Part shown: piece by piece, positions 241 to 9,605 of the stretch | Position numbering within the stretch: the first letter of the stretch is position 1 | Layout of the letters: each line of letters opens with the position of its first letter | Assembly (NCBI GenBank): GCA_003153655.1 | Contig: PMAK01000234.1 | Coordinates: forward strand, 3,155-13,337 | From: Phycisphaerales bacterium | GTDB lineage: Bacteria > Planctomycetota > Phycisphaerae > Tepidisphaerales > Tepidisphaeraceae | Direction of reading: 5' to 3' | Length of the DNA: 10,183 bases | Notes under the pieces: generated by a model | The model's input: only the letters and a program-made list of their open reading frames with translations | The model's database searches: none | Told to the model about the DNA's origin: nothing | Translations under genes and position numbers: made by a program

Positions 241-612
241 ATGCCGCAAACGGCCGTCGTTCTTTTTCGAGAGGACGATGGGTCGATTCCGCTTTTGGAT
301 TGGCTTGATGAATTGCCGGATAAGGCAAAGGATAAGTGCGTCGCCCGATTGCGGCGGTTAGCCGATCTGGGACACGAATTACGCCGTCCCGAGGCGGACT
401 TTCTTCACAACGGGATTTATGAATTGCGGGTCGGCCTGGTCGGAATAAATTACCGAATGTTGTACTTTTTTCATGGGAATCGCCTGGCGATAGTGGCGCA
501 TGGCCTGCTTAAGGAGAGACGAGTGCCTCCCGTCGAAATCGACCGGGCGATCAACAGAATGAGGCGGTATATGGCCAATCCGGCCAAACATACCGCGGAA
601 ATGCCAATATGA
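241..612 (+). CDS. HigB/RelE-superfamily toxin (phage Gp49-like)
   Basis: A 123-residue basic protein of the phage-derived Gp49-like/HigB group of the RelE superfamily. These are ribosome-dependent mRNA interferases that cleave mRNA during translation and are neutralised by the partner antitoxin. Family marks are visible in order: an N-terminal strand, DWLDELPDKAK (helix 1), LRRLADLGHELRRPEADFL (helix 2), then NGIYELRVGLVGINYRMLYFF, the typical G-(I/L)-YELR and YR-(M/V)-LYF strand pair. A late basic segment LLKERRVPPVEIDRAINR corresponds to the usual K-K-T-x-x-x-P-x-x-E-I-x-x-A helix. Length fits the family (about 100-120). The first in-frame ATG is used; no clear Shine-Dalgarno precedes it. 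The stop overlaps the antitoxin start as ATGA. The toxin-first order is that of HigBA-type modules. Family membership is well supported; activity is inferred. Confidence 0.85.
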   Translation: MPQTAVVLFREDDGSIPLLDWLDELPDKAKDKCVARLRRLADLGHELRRPEADFLHNGIYELRVGLVGINYRMLYFFHGNRLAIVAHGLLKERRVPPVEIDRAINRMRRYMANPAKHTAEMPI

Positions 613-941
613 AGCCTAAAATCCGGCGAACAACGACCGATGCATTGCAAATCATTCATGAGCGGTTTTACGCGGGGCGGCCTCGCCGCATTGCCCAACT
701 CCAGGAGGCTCAGGCGAATGACGACATTGCCCGTAAGATTTACATGATCCGGACCTCGGCGAACCTGACTCAGCGCCAATTGGCCAAGCTTGTGGGAACG
801 ACGGCGTCGGTCATCTGCCGCCTGGAAGACGCGAAATACGAAGGACATTCGCTGGCATTGCTGAACCGCATCGCAATGGCGCTGGACAAGCGCGTCCGGA
901 TCGAGTTCGTGCCGCTGGTTAAGAAGAGACGGTCGGCATGA
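609..941 (+). CDS. HigA-like XRE-family antitoxin
   Basis: A 110-residue protein starting inside the toxin stop codon (ATG 609-611, toxin TGA 610-612), so translation is probably coupled. Residues of about 38-95 form a helix-turn-helix of the XRE/Cro type: an entry helix ending IRTSANLTQ, then RQLAKLVGTT and ASVICRLEDAKYEGHSLALL, followed by a last helix, NRIAMALDKRVRIEFVP. The spacing Q-x-x-LA-x-x-x-G-T-x-x-x-(I/V)-x-x-(I/L)-E is the expected one. The N-terminal third is basic and may bind the toxin. Members of this group neutralise HigB-like toxins and repress their own promoter by binding operators in it; here that would act on the 206-240 region, although I see no clear palindrome there. 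Confidence 0.85.
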   Translation: MKPKIRRTTTDALQIIHERFYAGRPRRIAQLQEAQANDDIARKIYMIRTSANLTQRQLAKLVGTTASVICRLEDAKYEGHSLALLNRIAMALDKRVRIEFVPLVKKRRSA

Positions 942-1143: not shown

Positions 1144-1171
1144 TTGACACAATATTTTTCATATATATGAT
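1144..1171 (+). promoter_or_regulatory. Sigma70-type promoter of the pseudopilin cassette
   Basis: TTGACA (1144-1149), a 16-base AT-rich spacer and TATGAT (1166-1171). Both hexamers are close to or at consensus. The predicted start is about 1178, giving a leader of about 29 bases to the ATG at 1207. GAGGAG (1196-1201), five bases before the ATG, is a good Shine-Dalgarno sequence. Confidence 0.7.
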
Positions 1172-1206: not shown

Positions 1207-2328
1207 ATGTCTATTAAGAGCGTCAAACGAGGCTTTACTCTGGTCGAACTGCTGGTGGTGATCGGGATCATTGCGTTGTTGATTTCGATATTGCTGCCAG
1301 CGCTGAACCGTGCCAGGGAGCAGGCGAATCTTGTGGCGTGTATGTCCAATTTGCGCAACATCGGGCAACTCATCCAGGAATATGCTGCGGATAATCGCGG
1401 GTATCTGCCCTATGGATATGCAACCGTCCCGGCACCGGGAGTTGGCGGTGAGCCGCTAAACACAACTGAGTATGTCTCAGGTAATGATTTGCAGAGCGTG
1501 CCATGCTGGAATTGGCCCGACAGCCTCTCTCGCGAGACAAACAATAAGGCCCCTGGCGATGGTGGATCATTGGTTTGGGATCCATCTACGAGCGCCTCTG
1601 GTTTTTTGGCACAGAACGAAGGAAATATGTCGCCGGATTTTCTCGGTGTGTTTCATGATTATGACACATCCGGGCTTCCCTATCAGACCCGCGTTTCAGA
1701 CTACATGGGCAACGCGGTTGTTATGATTGATTGCAACATGTGGGATCCAAGGTATAAGCAAACCGGAGGAGCGGACCCCAAGCAAGGGTACTTGTCCCTT
1801 CGCCAACTTGGCAGCATCAGGCGGCCTGCTGAGACAATGATGGTCTGGTGCGGTCCGCAAAGCCTTACCGACGGACAGAGTGCCGCAGCTCTTGGCGCAA
1901 ATTATGGTTGGTTGGCTGAACAACTGGATGGATCGGTAATGGAATGGGGTGGTGCTACCTACGGGCAGTATTATCCGACACCAGCAGGAGCTGTTCAATC
2001 ACCGGCTAACCAATTGTGGCCAACAAATCCAATTGCTCTCGGAAATCCGGGAACATTTATTCCGCCGATTAGCGGCCTAACGCTTGTGAATGCCTCTACT
2101 GGATTGGGCGCCACTCTTTTCTGCAACCAGGGAGAGAACGTGGATATCACAAATCGCCGGGATAAATATGCCTCAATGTGCAACATGCGATTTCGGCACA
2201 TGAATAACACAACGTTAAACGCCCTTTTCATCGACGGGCATGTGGAATCACGAGTACTCATGCAGGTGGTGGCTAGGGATGTGTCGATCACCACATCAAT
2301 TGGTTACGGTCCTCCGCCGGGGCAATGA
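1207..2328 (+). CDS. Type II secretion/type IV pilin-like pseudopilin with H-X-DG C-terminal motif
   Basis: A 373-residue protein with a class III (prepilin) signal. After a short basic leader (MSIKSVKRG) the cleavage motif [13 protein letters not shown] appears, with the conserved Glu at +5 of the mature protein, followed by about 20 hydrophobic residues. Prepilin peptidase would cut after Gly9 and methylate Phe10. Next comes [20 protein letters not shown], the amphipathic helix seen in planctomycete and verrucomicrobial pseudopilins, then [10 protein letters not shown]. The middle (about residues 70-320) is a large variable globular part. Near the end [19 protein letters not shown] matches the H-X9-DG motif of prepilin processing-associated proteins, but with 11 residues between His and DG. 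Such pseudopilins are much longer than GspG (about 140) and are highly paralogous in these phyla; their substrates are unknown. The next gene overlaps it by ATGA. Confidence 0.88.
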
Positions 2329-2927
2329 GCAAGTTGGAGGCACCTGATAGAAGACGTGGCCCAGAGATTGATGGACCAATCGAGATCGTAGTTAAAGACA
2401 GGGAGATAGCCAAGTTGACAATGAGCGTTAGAGAAAAACTTAACGACAAGAAGCTCGGAATCGGCGTGGCGGTCGGACTGATTGTCGTGGCTGGGTTGGT
2501 TCTTGGACATTATTTCCTGTCTCACTGGACGCCCAGCGTAAATGTGACGCAGGCGTATTTCACTGACGACGATGGGCAGACTTACTACAAAGATACCGTC
2601 TATCAATTCCCACCATTCGAAAAGGGCGGAAAAACTGTATCGCTGGTAACACTCGGAGAATCCAACGGCCACCGGTTTATTGCGTTTCTCTCCCGTTATA
2701 CGCCCAGCGCACAGAAGGAACTTCAGAAAAGATACGATGATGCAGTGAAGAATGGCTTATCGGTGCAAAAGACGATGTTAGATTCGATGACATATTTTGG
2801 CGGCCAGATGGAAGTGAAGTTACCAGGGAGTGGCCATTCTTGGGTGCCTACTTCGCAAGTCGGAAGACTCGATGTGCGATCTCCGGATGGAAAGATTCCG
2901 GATAAATATATCGACCAACCTTCGTAG
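2325..2927 (+). CDS. Single-pass membrane protein of unknown function, paralog A
   Basis: A 200-residue protein whose ATG overlaps the pseudopilin stop (ATGA, 2325-2328), implying coupled translation. Residues 1-45 are charged and probably cytoplasmic. About 46-68 ([21 protein letters not shown]) is one transmembrane helix, so about 130 residues are probably exported. The exported part has [46 protein letters not shown] (helical) and a Gly/Pro-rich end PGSGHSWVP...[16 protein letters not shown]. The whole segment from about residue 34 recurs in the next gene. An internal ATG at 2421 (MSVREKL) lines up with where similarity to the paralog begins and is an alternative start, but it lacks a nearby Shine-Dalgarno. 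I know of no assigned function. My recollection, unchecked, is that similar DDGxTW/PPF proteins sit beside H-X-DG pseudopilins in other planctomycetes. A pilus-assembly or pilin-anchoring partner is a guess from position. Confidence 0.8.
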
Positions 2928-3511
2928 CTTCTGCTTCCGGTGGGCGGCGGGGCCGAAAGTCATTAAAATAAAACGGGGCGTCCTTGGGCACCGTGGCAAA
3001 AGCTGTCATGCCGCAAAGCGCTTATGATTTTTCGATCCGAGAATCGCTGCAAAGAAACCGCAAGGTAGGTTTAGCGGTCGCAATGATTATGATCCTCGTG
3101 GCAGCAGGGGTTGCCACTCACTATCTCTGGCCTCACGGCAAACAATTCGATCCTTCAAAAGCATTTTATACCGAGGACGATGGCCGAACCTATTTCGTGG
3201 ACAGCGTCTATAATTTCCCACCATTCGATCACAATGGAAAGACCGCGGTGGAGGCGGTAGTCGCCGTTTCGGACGGACATTATTTCGTAGGATACCTGCT
3301 TCGGTACAAACCCGAGGCCCGCAAGGAGCTCCAGGAAAAGTATGACGATGCGGTAAAAAACAACTTGCCCTTACAAAAGACTGTGTTGGATGCGATGGGG
3401 GCGATGTCGGGTCAAATGGAAGGGAAACTACCGGGCCCTGGCCACCCCTGGGTTCCAAACGGGCGGATTCCAAAATTGGACGTCAGATCTCCGGATGGAA
3501 AGATTCCGGAT
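2878..3511 (+). repeat. 26-bp identical segments marking the tandem gene duplication
   Basis: Positions 2878-2903 and 3486-3511 are identical over 26 bases and encode the end motif RSPDGKIPD in the two neighbouring paralogs. Outside this and a short shared CCACCATTCGA stretch the DNA has diverged. This points to an old tandem duplication with the C-terminal end held by selection or by local gene conversion. Confidence 0.75.
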
Positions 3512-3532
3512 CGCTACATCGACAATCCATAG
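2984..3532 (+). CDS. Single-pass membrane protein of unknown function, paralog B
   Basis: The second tandem copy of the family, about 175-183 residues. From AFYTEDDGRTYFVD to the C-terminus it aligns without gaps to paralog A; I count 73 identities in 123 positions. The order is a short basic N-terminus (SIRESLQRNRK), one transmembrane helix (VGLAVAMIMILVAAGVATHYL), then the exported domain with NFPPFDHNGKT, DGHYFVGYLLRYKPEARKEL, KLPGPGHPWVP and [15 protein letters not shown]. The start is uncertain: TTG 2984, with GGGG at 2975-2978 as a weak ribosome site, GTG 2993 or ATG 3008. All three keep the helix, and the ATG gives a length best matching the conserved part of paralog A. Only about 56-80 bases separate it from paralog A and no terminator lies between, so it is probably in the same transcript. 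Function unknown. Confidence 0.75.
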   Translation: MGTVAKAVMPQSAYDFSIRESLQRNRKVGLAVAMIMILVAAGVATHYLWPHGKQFDPSKAFYTEDDGRTYFVDSVYNFPPFDHNGKTAVEAVVAVSDGHYFVGYLLRYKPEARKELQEKYDDAVKNNLPLQKTVLDAMGAMSGQMEGKLPGPGHPWVPNGRIPKLDVRSPDGKIPDRYIDNP

Positions 3533-3591: not shown

Positions 3592-4530
3592 TTATTTCAA
3601 CCCCGTCGTCGCAATCCCCTGAATGAAGGTCTTCTGTGCCACGAAGAAGAGCAGAATCACGGGGAGCATCACCAGCATTGACGCGGCCATCAGCAGATTC
3701 CAATCGGTGCCACCTTGCGCGCTTTGGAAGGCCTGTAAACCCAGGGCTAGCGTGTATTGTTGCGGGCGCTGGAGATAGAGGAGCGGGCCGAGGAAGTTGT
3801 TCCAGGCCCACATGAATGAGAAGAGGGCGACGACCGCGAGGGCCGGGCGGCTCAGGGGGAGCATGATCCGCCAGAAGATGCCCCATTCGGTGCAGCCGTC
3901 GATTCGGGCGGCTTCGCTCAGGTCGTCGGGGATGGTCAGGAAGAATTGGCGGAGGAGGAAGATGCTGAAGGCGCTGCCGAACCAGGCTGGGAGCCAGAGC
4001 GGCTTGAAGGTGCCGAGCATCTGGAGTGGCGTGTGATCGCCGATGAAGCGGAAGACGATGAAGAGCGGGAGCATCATCACGGGGAACGGGATCATCATTG
4101 TTGAGAGCATGAGAACGAACAGAAAGCCGCGGCCTTTGAAGCGGATCTTGGCGAAGCCATAGGCGACGACGGCGCTGGAGAGGGTTGTGCCGAGAACGGA
4201 AAGGGCGGCGATCAGCAGAGTATTGCGGGTGTAGAGGGGGAAATCAGCCTTGGGGGAGGAGATCGCGCTCCAGTAATTCATCGGGACGGCCGGATGCGGA
4301 ATCAACTGCGGCGGAAAGCTCGTGGTTTTGTCCACGGTTTTGAGACTGGTGGAGATCATCCAGAGGAACGGCATGAGATAGCCGAAACAGATCAACATAA
4401 TGGCCAGGAGGGCGAACCATCGATGCGGATAGCGCCGCCTTCGCCTGCGAATCCTGGGGATTGCGGAGATGACTATGGCCGCTTCGCGCTGCTCGAGCAT
4501 TTGTGGAGAATCAGTAGGCAGAGTGCTCAT
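3592..4530 (-). CDS. ABC sugar transporter permease, MalG type
   Basis: A 312-residue inner-membrane permease of the MalG/CUT1 group. After a cytoplasmic tail with an arginine run (IRRRRRRYPHRW, about residues 27-38) come six predicted helices, the first being ALLAIMLICFGYLMPFLWMI, followed by STSLKT, typical of MalG. The cytoplasmic EAA loop that docks the ATPase is at about 206-225: EAARIDGCTEWGIFWRIMLP, with the conserved G at the expected place and P before the next helix. The C-terminus ends FIQGIATTGLK, resembling the F-x-x-G-(L/I)-x-x-G-x-x-K end of the family. The ATG directly follows the stop of the upstream permease gene with no gap. It is the last gene of a three-gene operon; no clear terminator is seen in the 59 bases before the convergent paralog B gene. 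Substrate unknown. Confidence 0.93.
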   Translation of the reverse strand: MSTLPTDSPQMLEQREAAIVISAIPRIRRRRRRYPHRWFALLAIMLICFGYLMPFLWMISTSLKTVDKTTSFPPQLIPHPAVPMNYWSAISSPKADFPLYTRNTLLIAALSVLGTTLSSAVVAYGFAKIRFKGRGFLFVLMLSTMMIPFPVMMLPLFIVFRFIGDHTPLQMLGTFKPLWLPAWFGSAFSIFLLRQFFLTIPDDLSEAARIDGCTEWGIFWRIMLPLSRPALAVVALFSFMWAWNNFLGPLLYLQRPQQYTLALGLQAFQSAQGGTDWNLLMAASMLVMLPVILLFFVAQKTFIQGIATTGLK

Positions 4531-5433
4531 TTATTTACCCTGGTAATGAACCCATCTGCTGCTGGTCCAGAACGCCACACCCGTCAGGACGAGCACGATT
4601 ACGAGCATGATCCAGGCCATGGCGCTTGCGTAGCCGATTTGCAGATACACAAACGCATTGTCGTAGAGATACATCGACAGAAAATAAGTTTTATGGACCG
4701 GGCCGCCGTTGGTCATGATGTACGGGATATCGAAAATCTGCAGTGCGCCGATGATGGCCATGATGAGGTTGAAAAAGATGACGGGGGACAGCATGGGGAT
4801 GGTGACGTGCCGCATGCGGCCGAGAAGTCCGGCGCCATCAAGCTCAGCGGCTTCGTACAATTCAACCGGCACATCCTGCAGGCCGGCGAGATAAATCACC
4901 ACGGCATTTCCGACACCCCAGAGGCTCATCAGCGCCAGCGTGGGCATAGCCCATTGCGGGTCGCCGAGCCATGGCGGAAGGGGGAAATTGAGCTTTGCCG
5001 GCAGAATATCATTTAGCCTGCCGAGCAGGAGGTTGAATAGTCCGAGCCTCGGATTCAGCATCCACATCCAAACCATGGCCGACGCGACGATCGGCACGAG
5101 GGAAGGCATGAAGATGATTGTTCGCCAGATGGCGCGGCCGGGGATTTCGACGTTAAGCAGCATTGCCAGGCCGAGCGAAACAAGCAGCCCGGCCGGAAGG
5201 GCCATTGCCGTGTAATAAAACGTATTGCTCGTCGCCTGCCAGAATGTTTTGTCGTGAAGGAGATCTGTGTAGTTGTGCGCGGCGATGTATCGCGGTGGCT
5301 GCAACATATCGAATTTGCAAAGGCTGAAATAAAACGACAATCCGATCGGAATCAATGTGAAAACGATAAACCCAATGAGCCATGGCGAGAGAAACGCCAT
5401 CCCTTTGCCAAATTGACGAAGTTCACTTTGCAT
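4531..5433 (-). CDS. ABC sugar transporter permease, MalF/UgpA type
   Basis: A 300-residue permease of the CUT1 group, pairing with the MalG-type protein in a heterodimeric channel. FLSPWLIGFIVFTLIPIGLSF is the first helix and carries the typical S-P-W-L-I-G-F start. The EAA docking loop is at about 194-213: EAAELDGAGLLGRMRHVTIP, again with the invariant G and P. GGP (about 243-245) in IMTNGGPVHKT is the usual periplasmic T-x-GGP motif. Six helices can be counted. Length is that of the short MalF/UgpA class without the large periplasmic loop of E. coli MalF. The ATG lies 11 bases inside the end of the binding-protein gene and has no clear Shine-Dalgarno, so expression probably depends on translational coupling. 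Confidence 0.93.
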   Translation of the reverse strand: MQSELRQFGKGMAFLSPWLIGFIVFTLIPIGLSFYFSLCKFDMLQPPRYIAAHNYTDLLHDKTFWQATSNTFYYTAMALPAGLLVSLGLAMLLNVEIPGRAIWRTIIFMPSLVPIVASAMVWMWMLNPRLGLFNLLLGRLNDILPAKLNFPLPPWLGDPQWAMPTLALMSLWGVGNAVVIYLAGLQDVPVELYEAAELDGAGLLGRMRHVTIPMLSPVIFFNLIMAIIGALQIFDIPYIMTNGGPVHKTYFLSMYLYDNAFVYLQIGYASAMAWIMLVIVLVLTGVAFWTSSRWVHYQGK

Positions 5434-7108
5434 CGGATTGCGGACTTTCTTGGGTGTCGAGATTTGTATTCTCGGGAACGTCCAGGGCTTTGTTCAGCTC
5501 CTTCTGGCAACGCACCTGTTCCTCATTGAGGATTTCAGCGGTTGTGCCATGAAGCATGTAAGAGCGCTCCGCGGCCTGGGTCAGCTCATCATAGATTTGC
5601 GGCCAGTTGATCAGTCGGGGAAGCGGCCGCGCGTTGGGGCTGGCGGCCAGGGCTTCGTATACGTCAACATAGGGACTAGGGTGATTGTCTTTGTACTGCT
5701 GACTTTCGACGGCGAGGGGAGATAGATTGCAGTGTTCCGAGCTGAGTTTTTCGATCTGGTCCTGCCGGCTGGCGAAGGCGATGAATTCCATCGCTTCCTT
5801 TTTGTGCTTGGATGTGCTGGGGATTACCCATACGTCCATGCCAGCCCAAGTGATATTGTCCACGCCCGGCACGGCTGATGGAAAGGCGGCAGCGCCCCAT
5901 TGACAATACTGCTGACGCATTTTGGCCGGCAGCCATTTCGCCAGTTTGTCCGAGACTTTTCCATCGACGAACGTAACGTAAATATCTTTGACTCCCGCGG
6001 GCCAGCGGAACATTTGAGCGCTCGCTGGGACATCGGGGGCGACGGTGCGGCCGCCGCCGCTTGGGGGATCACCCGGGCCGAGCAACTTCTGAACCAGGTT
6101 CAGGCTCATGCCAAGATCGATTTTATCGAAATCCACTTCTCGCTGAAGCTGATCCGGCGGAACATGCCAGCGATTGAACGACGGCTTAAGCTTTTCGATG
6201 AAGGCGGAGATCCAGGGGCCTTGCGCTTCCATCGCATTCCAGCCAACGAGGAAGGGATTTTGTGGCGTATCGAACATTCCAGTGGCGCCGCTGCTGAAAC
6301 CGCTGCGGAATTCGGCCAGTGAATCCCGGCCAAGCCGTTCGCTATAGCTGCGAATCCAGTTATAAGCCGCAAACATTTGAGGCGAATTGATCAGGACCTT
6401 GGTGCCGGTTGGGTCGGCGATCGAAGCGCCGAACCAATAGCCCATCACGTTGGTGGCGGTGCCGGGCTCCAGAGGAATACAGCCGGTGACGGACAGGTGT
6501 TTTGAGCCGCCGCTTGTAACCCAGGTATCTATGGCGGCGGCGTATTTATCCAGTTCGGCCATCGTTTGCGGAGGACGATCCGGGTCGAGGCCGGCCGCTC
6601 TCAATTGGGCCGCCTTTTCGTGAAATATTTCCTTGTTCCATAACATTGCGATGCACCAGACCGTGCTGGGGATGGCGTAGAGCTTTCCGTGATATTCGCA
6701 GCCATCGTAGAAGACATGTTTGTAATGGTCTCGGGTCAGGCCGTATTCCTGAACATAGTTGTCCAGCGGCTCCAGCGCGTTCATCGAAGCGAACTGCAAA
6801 ACCTGGGTATCCCATAGTCCGGCCACATCGGGGGGGACGCCGGCGGCGGTGGCGATGAGCGTCTTGCGATCGATCTGGCTCATGGAAGTAAAATCGACCC
6901 AGATTCCCTTGTCTTTGCCGACGGTGTTATTGAACGCATCGACGACTTCTTTCATCTGGTCAGCCTCGAGGCCGGTCCATTTTTCCCAATATTGGATTCG
7001 AACGCGTCCCTCAGGCGAGTTCATTTGGGGTCTGGGCCCAAACGCCAGCATTGCCGCGGCGCTGAGGATCATGAGCGAGATCAAAGTTATGGAGAGGAGT
7101 CGTTTCAC
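5423..7108 (-). CDS. Extracellular solute-binding protein of a sugar ABC importer (family 1)
   Basis: A 561-residue carbohydrate-binding component, larger than the usual 400-450. The N-terminus (MKRLLSITLISLMILSAAAMLAFG) is a signal peptide or membrane anchor without the lipobox cysteine. The mature part begins VRIQYWEKWTGLEADQMKEVVDAFN, the typical first strand and helix of family 1 binding proteins. Other family marks are ATAAGVPPDVAGLWD, the hinge-like MEAQGPWISAFI segment and MDVWVIPSTSKHKKEAMEFIAF near the end. Ligand residues cannot be named. The start is GTG at 7106-7108: an in-frame stop lies 14 codons upstream with no ATG between, and no clear Shine-Dalgarno precedes it. It is the first gene of the operon and overlaps the MalF-type gene by 11 bases. 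The acidic C-terminal tail of about 25 residues looks disordered. Confidence 0.92.
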   Translation of the reverse strand: MKRLLSITLISLMILSAAAMLAFGPRPQMNSPEGRVRIQYWEKWTGLEADQMKEVVDAFNNTVGKDKGIWVDFTSMSQIDRKTLIATAAGVPPDVAGLWDTQVLQFASMNALEPLDNYVQEYGLTRDHYKHVFYDGCEYHGKLYAIPSTVWCIAMLWNKEIFHEKAAQLRAAGLDPDRPPQTMAELDKYAAAIDTWVTSGGSKHLSVTGCIPLEPGTATNVMGYWFGASIADPTGTKVLINSPQMFAAYNWIRSYSERLGRDSLAEFRSGFSSGATGMFDTPQNPFLVGWNAMEAQGPWISAFIEKLKPSFNRWHVPPDQLQREVDFDKIDLGMSLNLVQKLLGPGDPPSGGGRTVAPDVPASAQMFRWPAGVKDIYVTFVDGKVSDKLAKWLPAKMRQQYCQWGAAAFPSAVPGVDNITWAGMDVWVIPSTSKHKKEAMEFIAFASRQDQIEKLSSEHCNLSPLAVESQQYKDNHPSPYVDVYEALAASPNARPLPRLINWPQIYDELTQAAERSYMLHGTTAEILNEEQVRCQKELNKALDVPENTNLDTQESPQSDAK

Positions 7109-7520: not shown

Positions 7521-7548
7521 TTGACTATTCGACTGCTTCATATATATT
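7521..7548 (+). promoter_or_regulatory. Promoter of the LacI-type regulator gene
   Basis: TTGACT (7521-7526), a 16-base spacer and TATATT (7543-7548). The predicted transcript start is near 7555, only about seven bases before the ATG at 7562, and there is no real Shine-Dalgarno sequence. The mRNA may therefore be almost leaderless. Confidence 0.55.
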
Positions 7549-7561
7549 AATCCCGGATGTC

Positions 7562-8623
7562 ATGAACCGGCTTCACTTTCAAGTCAGTCAAAAAAGTATT
7601 GCGGAACAGGCAGGCGTTTCCCAATCGACGGTTTCGTTGGTTCTGTCAGGCCGTCGGGTGAACTCGGATGAGACGAGTCAGCGGGTTTTGGAGGCGGCCG
7701 AACGTCTTCGATATCGCCCGAATCTGCTGGTCCGAGGCATTCAGACGGGAAAAACTCGAATGATCGGCGTGATGATGCCGCCATTCGACTTTTACTGGTC
7801 GGAAGTGCTTTACGGAATTCATGACGTGCTGACGGCTGCGGACCACGTGCCGATCACACTTTGGACAGTACATATTGGCGCCAAGCCGCGAAGACGCGAA
7901 GGGCCGGGCGAAGAGTTGCAACAGATTCACCGGTTGCTGGATCGAAGAGTGGATGGCGTGATTCTGTGGCCCCCGTTCGCGGAGTTGTTCAGAGAGCATA
8001 TACACGAATTTTCGTCCCGAAATCTTCCGGTGGTGACGATAGATCACCAACTCCCCGCGGAATACAACGCGGATTATGTCGGGAGTGATGAGGCAGAGGG
8101 CGGGCGAATGGTTGCCGAACATTTGTACGCTCAAGGGCACAGACGGATGGGACATGTGGCGGCGGCATCGGTGGCATCCTGGGCATTGGCCCGCCGAAGC
8201 GCCTTCGAGAATGCGGTGCGAGAGATGCCGGGCGCGAGTTGCGTGACCATGGAGGTTCCGCCAGGCGAAACAGGACTCGCCATCGAACCGGCTCGAGCGA
8301 TGTTGTCTTTGCCGGATCGGCCGACAGCAATATTCGCAGCCAGCGACTTGTACGCCAAGCAGGTTTATCAGGCGGCCAAGGAGTTGAATTTGAAAATACC
8401 GGACGACTTGAATGTCGTTGGCTTCTCGGATGATGACTTTGCGTGCGAGATGTCGCCCCCGCTGACGAGCGTACGTCAGCCGGCCTATCAGATTGGGCGG
8501 CGCGCGGCGGAAGTGCTTCTGGGAAGGTCGATGGGCCGGATTCGGGATCGCGGCCGGCATGAGGAATTGCCGGTGAGTTTAATCGTGCGGGAGTCGAGCC
8601 AGCGAATGGGCCCGCAGCACTGA
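7562..8623 (+). CDS. LacI-family transcriptional regulator
   Basis: A 353-residue regulator of normal family length. Residues of about 8-55 form the DNA-binding head: VSQKSIAEQAGVSQSTVSLVLSG (helix-turn-helix), then SDETSQRVLEAAERLRYRPN (third helix and hinge). The periplasmic-binding-protein-like effector domain follows. RMIGVMMPP is its first strand, RRVDGVILWPP and NLPVVTIDHQLP are core strands, VGSDEAEGGRMVAEHL is the typical D-x-x-x-(G/A) helix, PTAIFAASDLYAKQVYQAAKEL is the second-lobe segment, and LNVVGFSDDDFACEMSPPLTSVRQP is the usual V-x-G-(F/Y)-D/S-D end motif. It is divergent from the importer operon and so most likely represses it until a sugar binds. The effector is not readable. 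The ATG at 7562 keeps the head in register; an ATG at 7557 stops after one further codon. Confidence 0.95.
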   Translation: MNRLHFQVSQKSIAEQAGVSQSTVSLVLSGRRVNSDETSQRVLEAAERLRYRPNLLVRGIQTGKTRMIGVMMPPFDFYWSEVLYGIHDVLTAADHVPITLWTVHIGAKPRRREGPGEELQQIHRLLDRRVDGVILWPPFAELFREHIHEFSSRNLPVVTIDHQLPAEYNADYVGSDEAEGGRMVAEHLYAQGHRRMGHVAAASVASWALARRSAFENAVREMPGASCVTMEVPPGETGLAIEPARAMLSLPDRPTAIFAASDLYAKQVYQAAKELNLKIPDDLNVVGFSDDDFACEMSPPLTSVRQPAYQIGRRAAEVLLGRSMGRIRDRGRHEELPVSLIVRESSQRMGPQH

Positions 8624-8909: not shown

Positions 8910-9605
8910 ATGTTGGGACAGAATTTGCGTCGGCTCGGCATCCTGGCTGCACCGGCGGCACTCACATTCGCGGCCGCAACGGCCGTGCAAGCTCAGATTT
9001 ATACGCCAACCCAGGCAAACCTGCTTGCCATGCAAGATGAGCATTCGGGTAATAACCTTAGCAGCGTAGTGAACAGCATTACGCCGGATCTCAATGGTGG
9101 CGTGATCGTCAGTTTCAACTTCGGTCAGACGCAATCCAATGGCCGTCCCCCGGCAAGCACATCGGTTTGGGCGAATTTTGATGACACCTACTTTGGCCCG
9201 AATCTAAATCTGACGGCTTTTACGGATTCAGAAGTCACCGTAACACTTCTGACCGGCAGCGCTGACGCTGCGGTTGACGTTCAGCCATACATTCAAGAGG
9301 GATCTACTCAAGGATACGCCTTCGACGGCTTCAATCAGGCCGGTGCAGAAGTCTTCCCGCAGCGTGGTGGCCCGACTCTCCTGTCGGACGCTGTCCTCGC
9401 TAACGGTGGTGCAAATGTTGCCGACGATATCCGCTGGGGCTTCCAGGTGTTCCCGCAGCCGACGTACAGTGCCCCGGACCCCTTTGGTACTGGCCCGGAA
9501 TTGCTCGAGATCGACCCGGTTGCCGTTCCTGAGCCGGCCTCGCTCGGTCTGCTCGGCTTGGCCATTCCAGCCTTGCTGGCTCGTCGTCGCAATGCTTCCA
9601 AGTAA
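8910..9605 (+). CDS. PEP-CTERM sorting domain protein
   Basis: A 231-residue exported protein. A signal peptide (residues 1-28; basic LRR, then an alanine-rich core, probable cut after AVQA) is followed by a mature domain of about 175 residues rich in Asn, Thr, Gly and acidic residues, without cysteine, probably a beta-sandwich; I recognise no domain in it. From residue 206 the sequence is VPEPASLGLLGLAIPALLARRR: the PEP motif, a hydrophobic stretch and an arginine cluster, which is the sorting signal processed by exosortase at the cell envelope, often in exopolysaccharide-producing bacteria. No exosortase gene is in the window. It has the best ribosome site in the window and its own terminator, which suggest a single-gene, well-expressed unit. 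Role unknown; a surface or matrix protein is the usual inference. Confidence 0.9.
   Translation: MLGQNLRRLGILAAPAALTFAAATAVQAQIYTPTQANLLAMQDEHSGNNLSSVVNSITPDLNGGVIVSFNFGQTQSNGRPPASTSVWANFDDTYFGPNLNLTAFTDSEVTVTLLTGSADAAVDVQPYIQEGSTQGYAFDGFNQAGAEVFPQRGGPTLLSDAVLANGGANVADDIRWGFQVFPQPTYSAPDPFGTGPELLEIDPVAVPEPASLGLLGLAIPALLARRRNASK

Follow-up and report, generated by a model that had tools for sequence, protein, structure and literature searches.

What task falls to a pair of small proteins encoded in tandem directly behind a pseudopilin gene is the question raised by a locus of a Phycisphaerales bacterium (GenBank assembly GCA_003153655.1, contig PMAK01000234.1). The window, by which we mean the whole 10,183-nucleotide stretch of DNA analysed here, carries this pair (FAM1 and FAM2) flanked by the pseudopilin gene on one side and a sugar-type ABC operon on the other; genes for a LacI-type regulator and a PEP-CTERM protein lie beyond the operon (Table 1). 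For the uptake of whole polysaccharides into the planctomycete periplasm, published work offers a frame: pili-like fibres that bind dextran occur in Planctopirus limnophila and Gemmata obscuriglobus (PMC5394234), and a “fishing rod” hypothesis has been worded in a review (PMC12078418); excerpts of the fibre work name no molecular parts. According to excerpts of a 2024 survey, CAZyme clusters in the planctomycete phylum were functionally uncharacterised to its authors' knowledge (PMC11131199).

Table 1. Features of the window, with positions counted from its first letter.
Feature	Position	Strand	Description	Basis
Promoter-like site of the pilin operon	1144..1171	+	TTGACA, 16 bases, TATGAT; includes TTCATATATAT at 1158-1168	
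Pseudopilin gene	1207..2328	+	373 aa; N-methylation motif and C-terminal DGHVE	ORF, Pfam, NCBIfam
FAM1, first paralog	2325..2927	+	200 aa open frame; likely start 2421 (168 aa)	ORF, BLASTP, relatives
Asp-box of FAM1	2562..2585	+	TDDDGQTY, residues 80-87	
FAM2, second paralog	2984..3532	+	182 aa open frame; likely start 3008	ORF, BLASTP, AlphaFold2 model
Membrane helix of FAM2	3059..3127	+	Model residues 26-48	AlphaFold2 model
Asp-box of FAM2	3170..3193	+	TEDDGRTY, residues 63-70	
Sugar-type ABC transporter	3592..7108	-	Permeases 3592-4530 and 4531-5433; solute-binding protein 5423-7108	Pfam
Promoter-like site before the LacI-type gene	7521..7547	+	TTGAC and TTCATATATAT, as at the pilin promoter; word at 7537	
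LacI-type regulator	7562..8623	+	353 aa	Pfam

The gene upstream of the pair belongs to the type IV pilins and pseudopilins by its N-terminal cleavage/methylation motif (PF07963, 29.3 bits against a Pfam cut-off of 21.2; TIGR02532, 27.3 bits against an NCBIfam cut-off of 16.3). A sequence comparison with the PDB relates it to type IV pilins and GspG, in its N-terminal part only. The original prediction had called it an H-X-DG pseudopilin; the pilin part of that name stands through the N-methylation motif, and the H-X9-DG/DUF1559 part is rejected, because PF07596 is a weak match under the Pfam cut-off (19.4 against 23.3 bits) and TIGR04294 is absent among the NCBIfam matches up to E 10. Upstream of the pilin promoter, a strong GC-rich inverted repeat followed by a T-run is visible by eye at about 1069-1110 on the plus strand; its loop is longer than the terminator scan accommodates. 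It follows a two-gene pair (241-941, plus strand) that encodes a Gp49/DUF891-like protein and a helix-turn-helix protein by Pfam, with overlapping ends, an arrangement that we take to be that of HigBA-type toxin-antitoxin pairs.

Both predicted paralogs are present as adjacent open reading frames behind the pseudopilin gene. FAM1 and FAM2 are identical at 88 of 168 positions (BLASTP E 3e-65), and an eye count on this alignment, to the C-terminal end, returns the 73 of 123 identical residues that had been claimed for their ungapped exported domain; the motifs listed with that claim are there as well. No Pfam or NCBIfam family reaches its cut-off for FAM1 or FAM2, and pilin families in these collections are unmatched by either protein up to E 10. 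The paralogs lack the N-terminal cleavage/methylation motif and were rejected as pilins in their own right. An initial protein search yielded 25 relatives, and a profile search extended this to 519, with 120 of them listed; among these 120, no match has a Pfam domain and those named by organism are Tepidisphaeraceae or Phycisphaerales bacteria. In FAM2 numbering, D65-D66-G67, P80-F81, G85, K148, P150-G151 and W156 are conserved in at least 96% of 119 relatives, and R19, F71, A88 and F101 are additionally near-invariant.

An AlphaFold2 model of FAM2, built on an alignment of 119 sequences, reaches a mean pLDDT of 92.3. Residues 18-24 and 26-48 form helices, the latter being the membrane helix; five strands, then two longer helices and a C-terminal part make up the rest. 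Apart from the membrane helix, the model shows a domain of about 120 residues with seven strands and three helices. The first two strands (59-63 and 71-74) flank a D-D-G loop that resembles an Asp-box, a motif whose consensus is given in excerpts of PMC2716378 as S/T-x-D/N-x-G-x-T/S-W/F/Y in a beta-hairpin. Both paralogs and 107 of 119 relatives fit this consensus, against 0.22 expected in shuffles; among the 93 class-wide family ORFs described below, the strict fit holds for only 44. BNR profiles match the family weakly: the best E is 0.0021, and 23 of 119 members match at E 0.1 or better. The identity of an Asp-box (BNR) beta-propeller was rejected because the motif is single-copy and sits in a small domain of about 120 residues, not repeated in a propeller. 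As modelled, a family protein would begin with a short cytoplasmic stretch that includes a conserved R-E, cross the membrane by a single helix and end in an exported domain bearing one Asp-box; this domain presumably faces the periplasm.

Public relatives help to place the starts of both genes and to date their duplication. The original prediction noted an ATGA overlap between FAM1 and the pilin stop; these letters exist, but they are probably not a working start, since relatives begin 96 bases later. P0007 and the 168-aa public version of the window's own FAM1 (P0011) both begin at MSVREKL, window position 2421, so the overlap is probably accidental. FAM2 probably starts at 3008, where its relative P0002 begins (MPQSAYDF), despite a public version of FAM2 (P0001) that starts at GTG 2993. 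FAM1 shares 67% identity with P0007 and FAM2 shares 70% with P0002, compared to 52% between FAM1 and FAM2 and 61% between P0002 and P0007. The duplication therefore seems to predate the split from P0002 and P0007. The longest contig is 49,181 bases for both of these proteins, which suggests, without proving, that they are neighbours as well. Each paralog having its own counterpart in a relative, a split into two diverged roles is plausible; the original prediction had suggested two similar roles or two partners. Tandem duplication recurs in the family, as the grouping of same-locus copies on the tree indicates: sister copies are found in C135 (L010), L084 and L121 as well, and the three L114 copies cluster.

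The paralogs represent an unnamed family that is almost confined to one planctomycete class. In a sample of 298 genomes of this class, its profile found matches in 58, among them 22 of the 26 listed genomes of the window's own taxonomic family; in a thinner sample of the phylum it found them in 9 of 392, two of these outside the class. The class search produced 122 matches in the 58 genomes; 80 stretches taken from them, together with five from the window's genome, gave 93 family ORFs (L121 8406-8948 at E 5e-4 only), and matches outside these 85 stretches were mostly weaker. The neighbour table holds 92 family genes, identical proteins being counted once, and 87 free-standing relatives remain after six fusions are set aside. 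The window's genome has eight family copies in six clusters. Pilins were called by motif on ORFs, and missed ones were added by hand or with a wider motif (the truncated pilins of L050 and L062, and those of L119 and L112), so others may be missed among linked or unlinked genes.

Linkage to pilins is concentrated at one position. A pilin lies directly upstream on the same strand for 29 of 92 family genes, compared to 7 of 382 at the pooled positions -4, -3, +2, +3 and +4 (Fisher p 1e-16, on the neighbour table before missed pilins were added); positions -2 (4 of 84) and +1 (5 of 91) were left out of the pool. When tandems are counted through and missed pilins are included, 38 of the 87 free-standing genes are pilin-linked and 49 have no adjacent same-strand pilin, although some of the latter (e.g., L109, L116 and L118) have a pilin nearby on the opposite strand. 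In the window's genome, a pilin lies directly upstream in four of the six clusters and directly downstream in a fifth. The same genome has 33 N_methyl pilin matches, six of them at or beside a family gene; 20 stretches that cover 25 of the other 27 contain no family member. The original prediction described the paralogs as obligate partners of the pseudopilin, proposed a profile search that counts pilin neighbours, and named homologs scattered away from pseudopilins as the refuting outcome. The counts bear out a real coupling and contradict an obligate one, and scattering is therefore true of one part of the family and not of another.

Fusions and evolutionary history add to this mixed picture. 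In one fusion (L046), the domain ends an exported protein directly behind a pilin-like region with a DGHVE signature (i-E 5.2e-6; TIGR04294 17.9 bits, just under the cut-off of 19). The other five fusions have no pilin-like region, and one of these, L047, resembles an esterase. Cysteine-rich versions of the domain with CxxC-like pairs, possibly metal-binding, end exported proteins in L044, L045, L046 and L048. These observations bear on the view, put forward in the original prediction, that the family protein is an anchor, chaperone or assembly factor; it would keep its own pseudopilin stable in the membrane or initiate the filament, with no carbohydrate recognition. The strict position directly behind the pilin, the L046 fusion and the conserved R-E ahead of the membrane helix are consistent with such a role. 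We nevertheless consider it unlikely, given that most pilins of the window's genome do without a family protein, that more than half of the relatives (49 of 87) are not beside a pilin, and that some exported proteins with no pilin-like region, the esterase-like L047 among them, have the domain at their end too.

Pilin linkage has been gained or lost many times, as the pilin label changes at least 13 times on the family tree, compared to 28.6 changes in shuffles. Where linkage exists, pilin distances correlate with family distances (33 pairs, r 0.68; 20 pairs within the own family, r 0.73; 0 of 5000 permutations), a correlation that leans on few close pairs, with nearest neighbours agreeing in 7 of 20. 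In L080/L081 and L076/L082, both partners are mutual nearest neighbours within one genome. Copies of family f5 (L097, L099, L100, L104-L107 and L118) adjoin ribBA, a riboflavin synthesis gene, without a same-strand adjacent pilin, and form a second habitat. The copies that lack a pilin, next to ribBA or to other genes, weigh most heavily against a role restricted to pilins. They also favour, along with the 49 unlinked relatives and the repeated label changes, a general envelope protein with a job of its own that was merely recruited into sugar operons, where pilin adjacency would arise because both are frequent there. Enrichment of pilins at the single position directly upstream, and the mutual nearest neighbours of L080/L081 and L076/L082, speak against that explanation, which we hold to be improbable.

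Pilin-linked family genes are often followed by enzymes. The next same-strand gene encodes a polysaccharide-degrading enzyme for 11 of 21 pilin-linked followers but for 0 of the 16 unlinked followers scanned (p 6e-4), a context that goes beyond the original prediction, which missed it. Nine of the enzymes were assigned by Pfam: GH10, GH53, two GH67-like proteins (both DUF4838 with a GH67 N-terminal domain), GH95, GH5, GH130, GH2 and an alginate lyase. For two more, PDB relatives decided the call, one being a GH74-type xyloglucanase and the other a xylosidase relative; without these two, the comparison is 9 of 21 against 0 of 16 (p 0.005). Of the other ten linked followers, four received no call; the remaining six are a transketolase, a MatE transporter, an alanyl-tRNA synthetase, a LuxR-type regulator, a xylose-isomerase-like protein and a DUF1349 protein. 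The 21 distinct linked followers leave 15 linked genes with none callable, the window's included. Unlinked genes likewise have 21 distinct followers (16 scanned singly, five only within a pooled scan) and 27 genes with none callable. A phosphoglucomutase and an epimerase occur among the 16, neither of which degrades polysaccharides, and a PDB search with four of the ten unlinked followers that had no call found nothing.

Three clusters of the window's genome run from a pilin through one or more family genes to a GH74, GH53 or GH10 gene. The window's own cassette, with its pilin and two family genes, lies beside the sugar ABC/LacI locus and has no enzyme gene behind it. Two pilins without a family gene were examined. 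One (L144 2283-3395, minus strand, C5) has an endo-beta-1,2-glucanase relative 13 bases downstream, so linkage to enzymes may be a property of pilins by themselves; the follower of the second has no PDB relative. Downstream of a pilin and family gene in another locus, L113 7658-11665 (plus strand) encodes a single protein that combines an M56 BlaR1-type peptidase with a secretin domain. The enzyme context could also be read as secretion: the family protein would recruit the co-encoded enzyme or retain it at the membrane, and the pseudopilin would meanwhile push this enzyme through the type II system. We liken such a role of the family protein to that of GspC. This adaptor would suit the 11 of 21 linked cases with an enzyme next, the single helix and exported domain of the model, and the fusion of the domain to exported proteins. 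The window and 10 of the 21 linked cases, however, have no enzyme next, and the enzymes span about ten families, which makes a shared recognition site hard to see. Such an adaptor seems to us quite unlikely.

Regulators occur near both groups of family genes. Flank scans, which covered 94 of 118 listed neighbours of linked genes and 93 of 208 of unlinked genes, found LacI-type regulators (Peripla_BP_3) eight times and AraC-type ones four times near linked genes, and four times each near unlinked ones. In the window, the exported PEP-CTERM protein (8910-9605, plus strand; Pfam) lies behind the LacI gene. A Pfam scan of ten window ORFs reported neither a SusC nor a SusD family, so that the locus does not qualify as one of SusC/SusD type. 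The pilin and LacI promoters share a rare word, TTCATATATAT, which was picked after looking at the window. It occurs six times in the 4.65-Mb genome, three of these on this 13.3-kb contig (binomial 5e-7). Only two of the genomic copies, both inside the window, have a TTGAC at promoter distance. The third copy on the contig (L009 2064-2074, minus strand) is outside the window, just behind a promoter-like TTGACA/TATACT and about 70 bases before an exported ORF (L009 914-1993). A search of the contig for near-palindromes found three sites compared to 0.33 expected, and 2 of 200 shuffles reached three. The LacI-type regulator may control the TTCATATATAT sites.

These findings suggest that the family is best described as an accessory anchored in the membrane; in 38 of the 87 sampled cases it is coupled to a pilin, often in a cassette with a polysaccharide-degrading enzyme. 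Our preferred reading, which we put forward tentatively, is that the family protein is an inner-membrane accessory or recognition partner in pilin-based polysaccharide-capture cassettes. A family gene and its adjacent pseudopilin gene would then form a cassette for one carbohydrate. The pseudopilin, assembled by the cell's common type II/type IV machine, would bind or carry the polysaccharide. The family protein would remain anchored in the inner membrane and expose its domain to the periplasm, where it may hold the pilin base or take over the glycan, and this handover would let the co-encoded enzyme or sugar transporter act on the glycan. The tandem in the window could represent two specialised versions of the partner in a LacI-regulated sugar-uptake locus. 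Against capture cassettes stand the unlinked majority of family genes, the many pilins of the window's genome without a family gene, the lack of an enzyme behind the window's cassette, the LacI-type and AraC-type regulators near unlinked genes too, and the five fusions without a pilin-like region. Cassettes with enzymes of predicted specificity (xyloglucan, galactan, xylan, mannan, fucose-containing glycans and alginate) name candidate parts together with predicted substrates, so that the “fishing rod” idea becomes testable gene by gene.

Several known systems resemble these cassettes in part. In the excerpted fishing-rod literature, pilin-like proteins have been proposed to capture intact polysaccharides and to draw these into the planctomycete periplasm; these fibres differ in belonging to another class, and the excerpts name neither a protein of the present family nor an enzyme cassette (PMC5394234, PMC12078418). 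The alginate locus of Verruconatronum alginivorum, as described in excerpts, includes a PulG-like pseudopilin, with 67 homologues in one genome, that is encoded with polysaccharide-degrading genes and over-expressed on the polysaccharide; this organism belongs to the Verrucomicrobiota, however, and no membrane-anchored partner like the present family is named in those excerpts (PMC13274419). Rhodopirellula baltica has 74 DUF1559 genes according to an excerpt of PMC2754498. The window's pilin shares the N-methylation motif with DUF1559/PF07596 pilins and matches PF07596 weakly, but it stays under the cut-off and is not called H-X9-DG. Asp-box (BNR) proteins share with the present family one loop that fits their consensus; the motif, to which excerpts of PMC2716378 give a mainly structural role, is repeated in a beta-propeller there, whereas here it occurs once in a small domain. 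A search of titles and the beginnings of abstracts returned no description of the family or of such cassettes in this class. A bolder form of our reading, for which we see a small chance, is that a substrate-specific pseudopilin binds the glycan and its own inner-membrane family receptor removes the glycan from the retracting filament, enzyme included, which would make the cassette a pilus counterpart of SusC/SusD. In the SusC/SusD-type loci of Bacteroidota, capture proteins lie beside different enzymes and regulators, with one set per substrate; the present cassettes put a pilin and an ABC importer in place of SusC and SusD.
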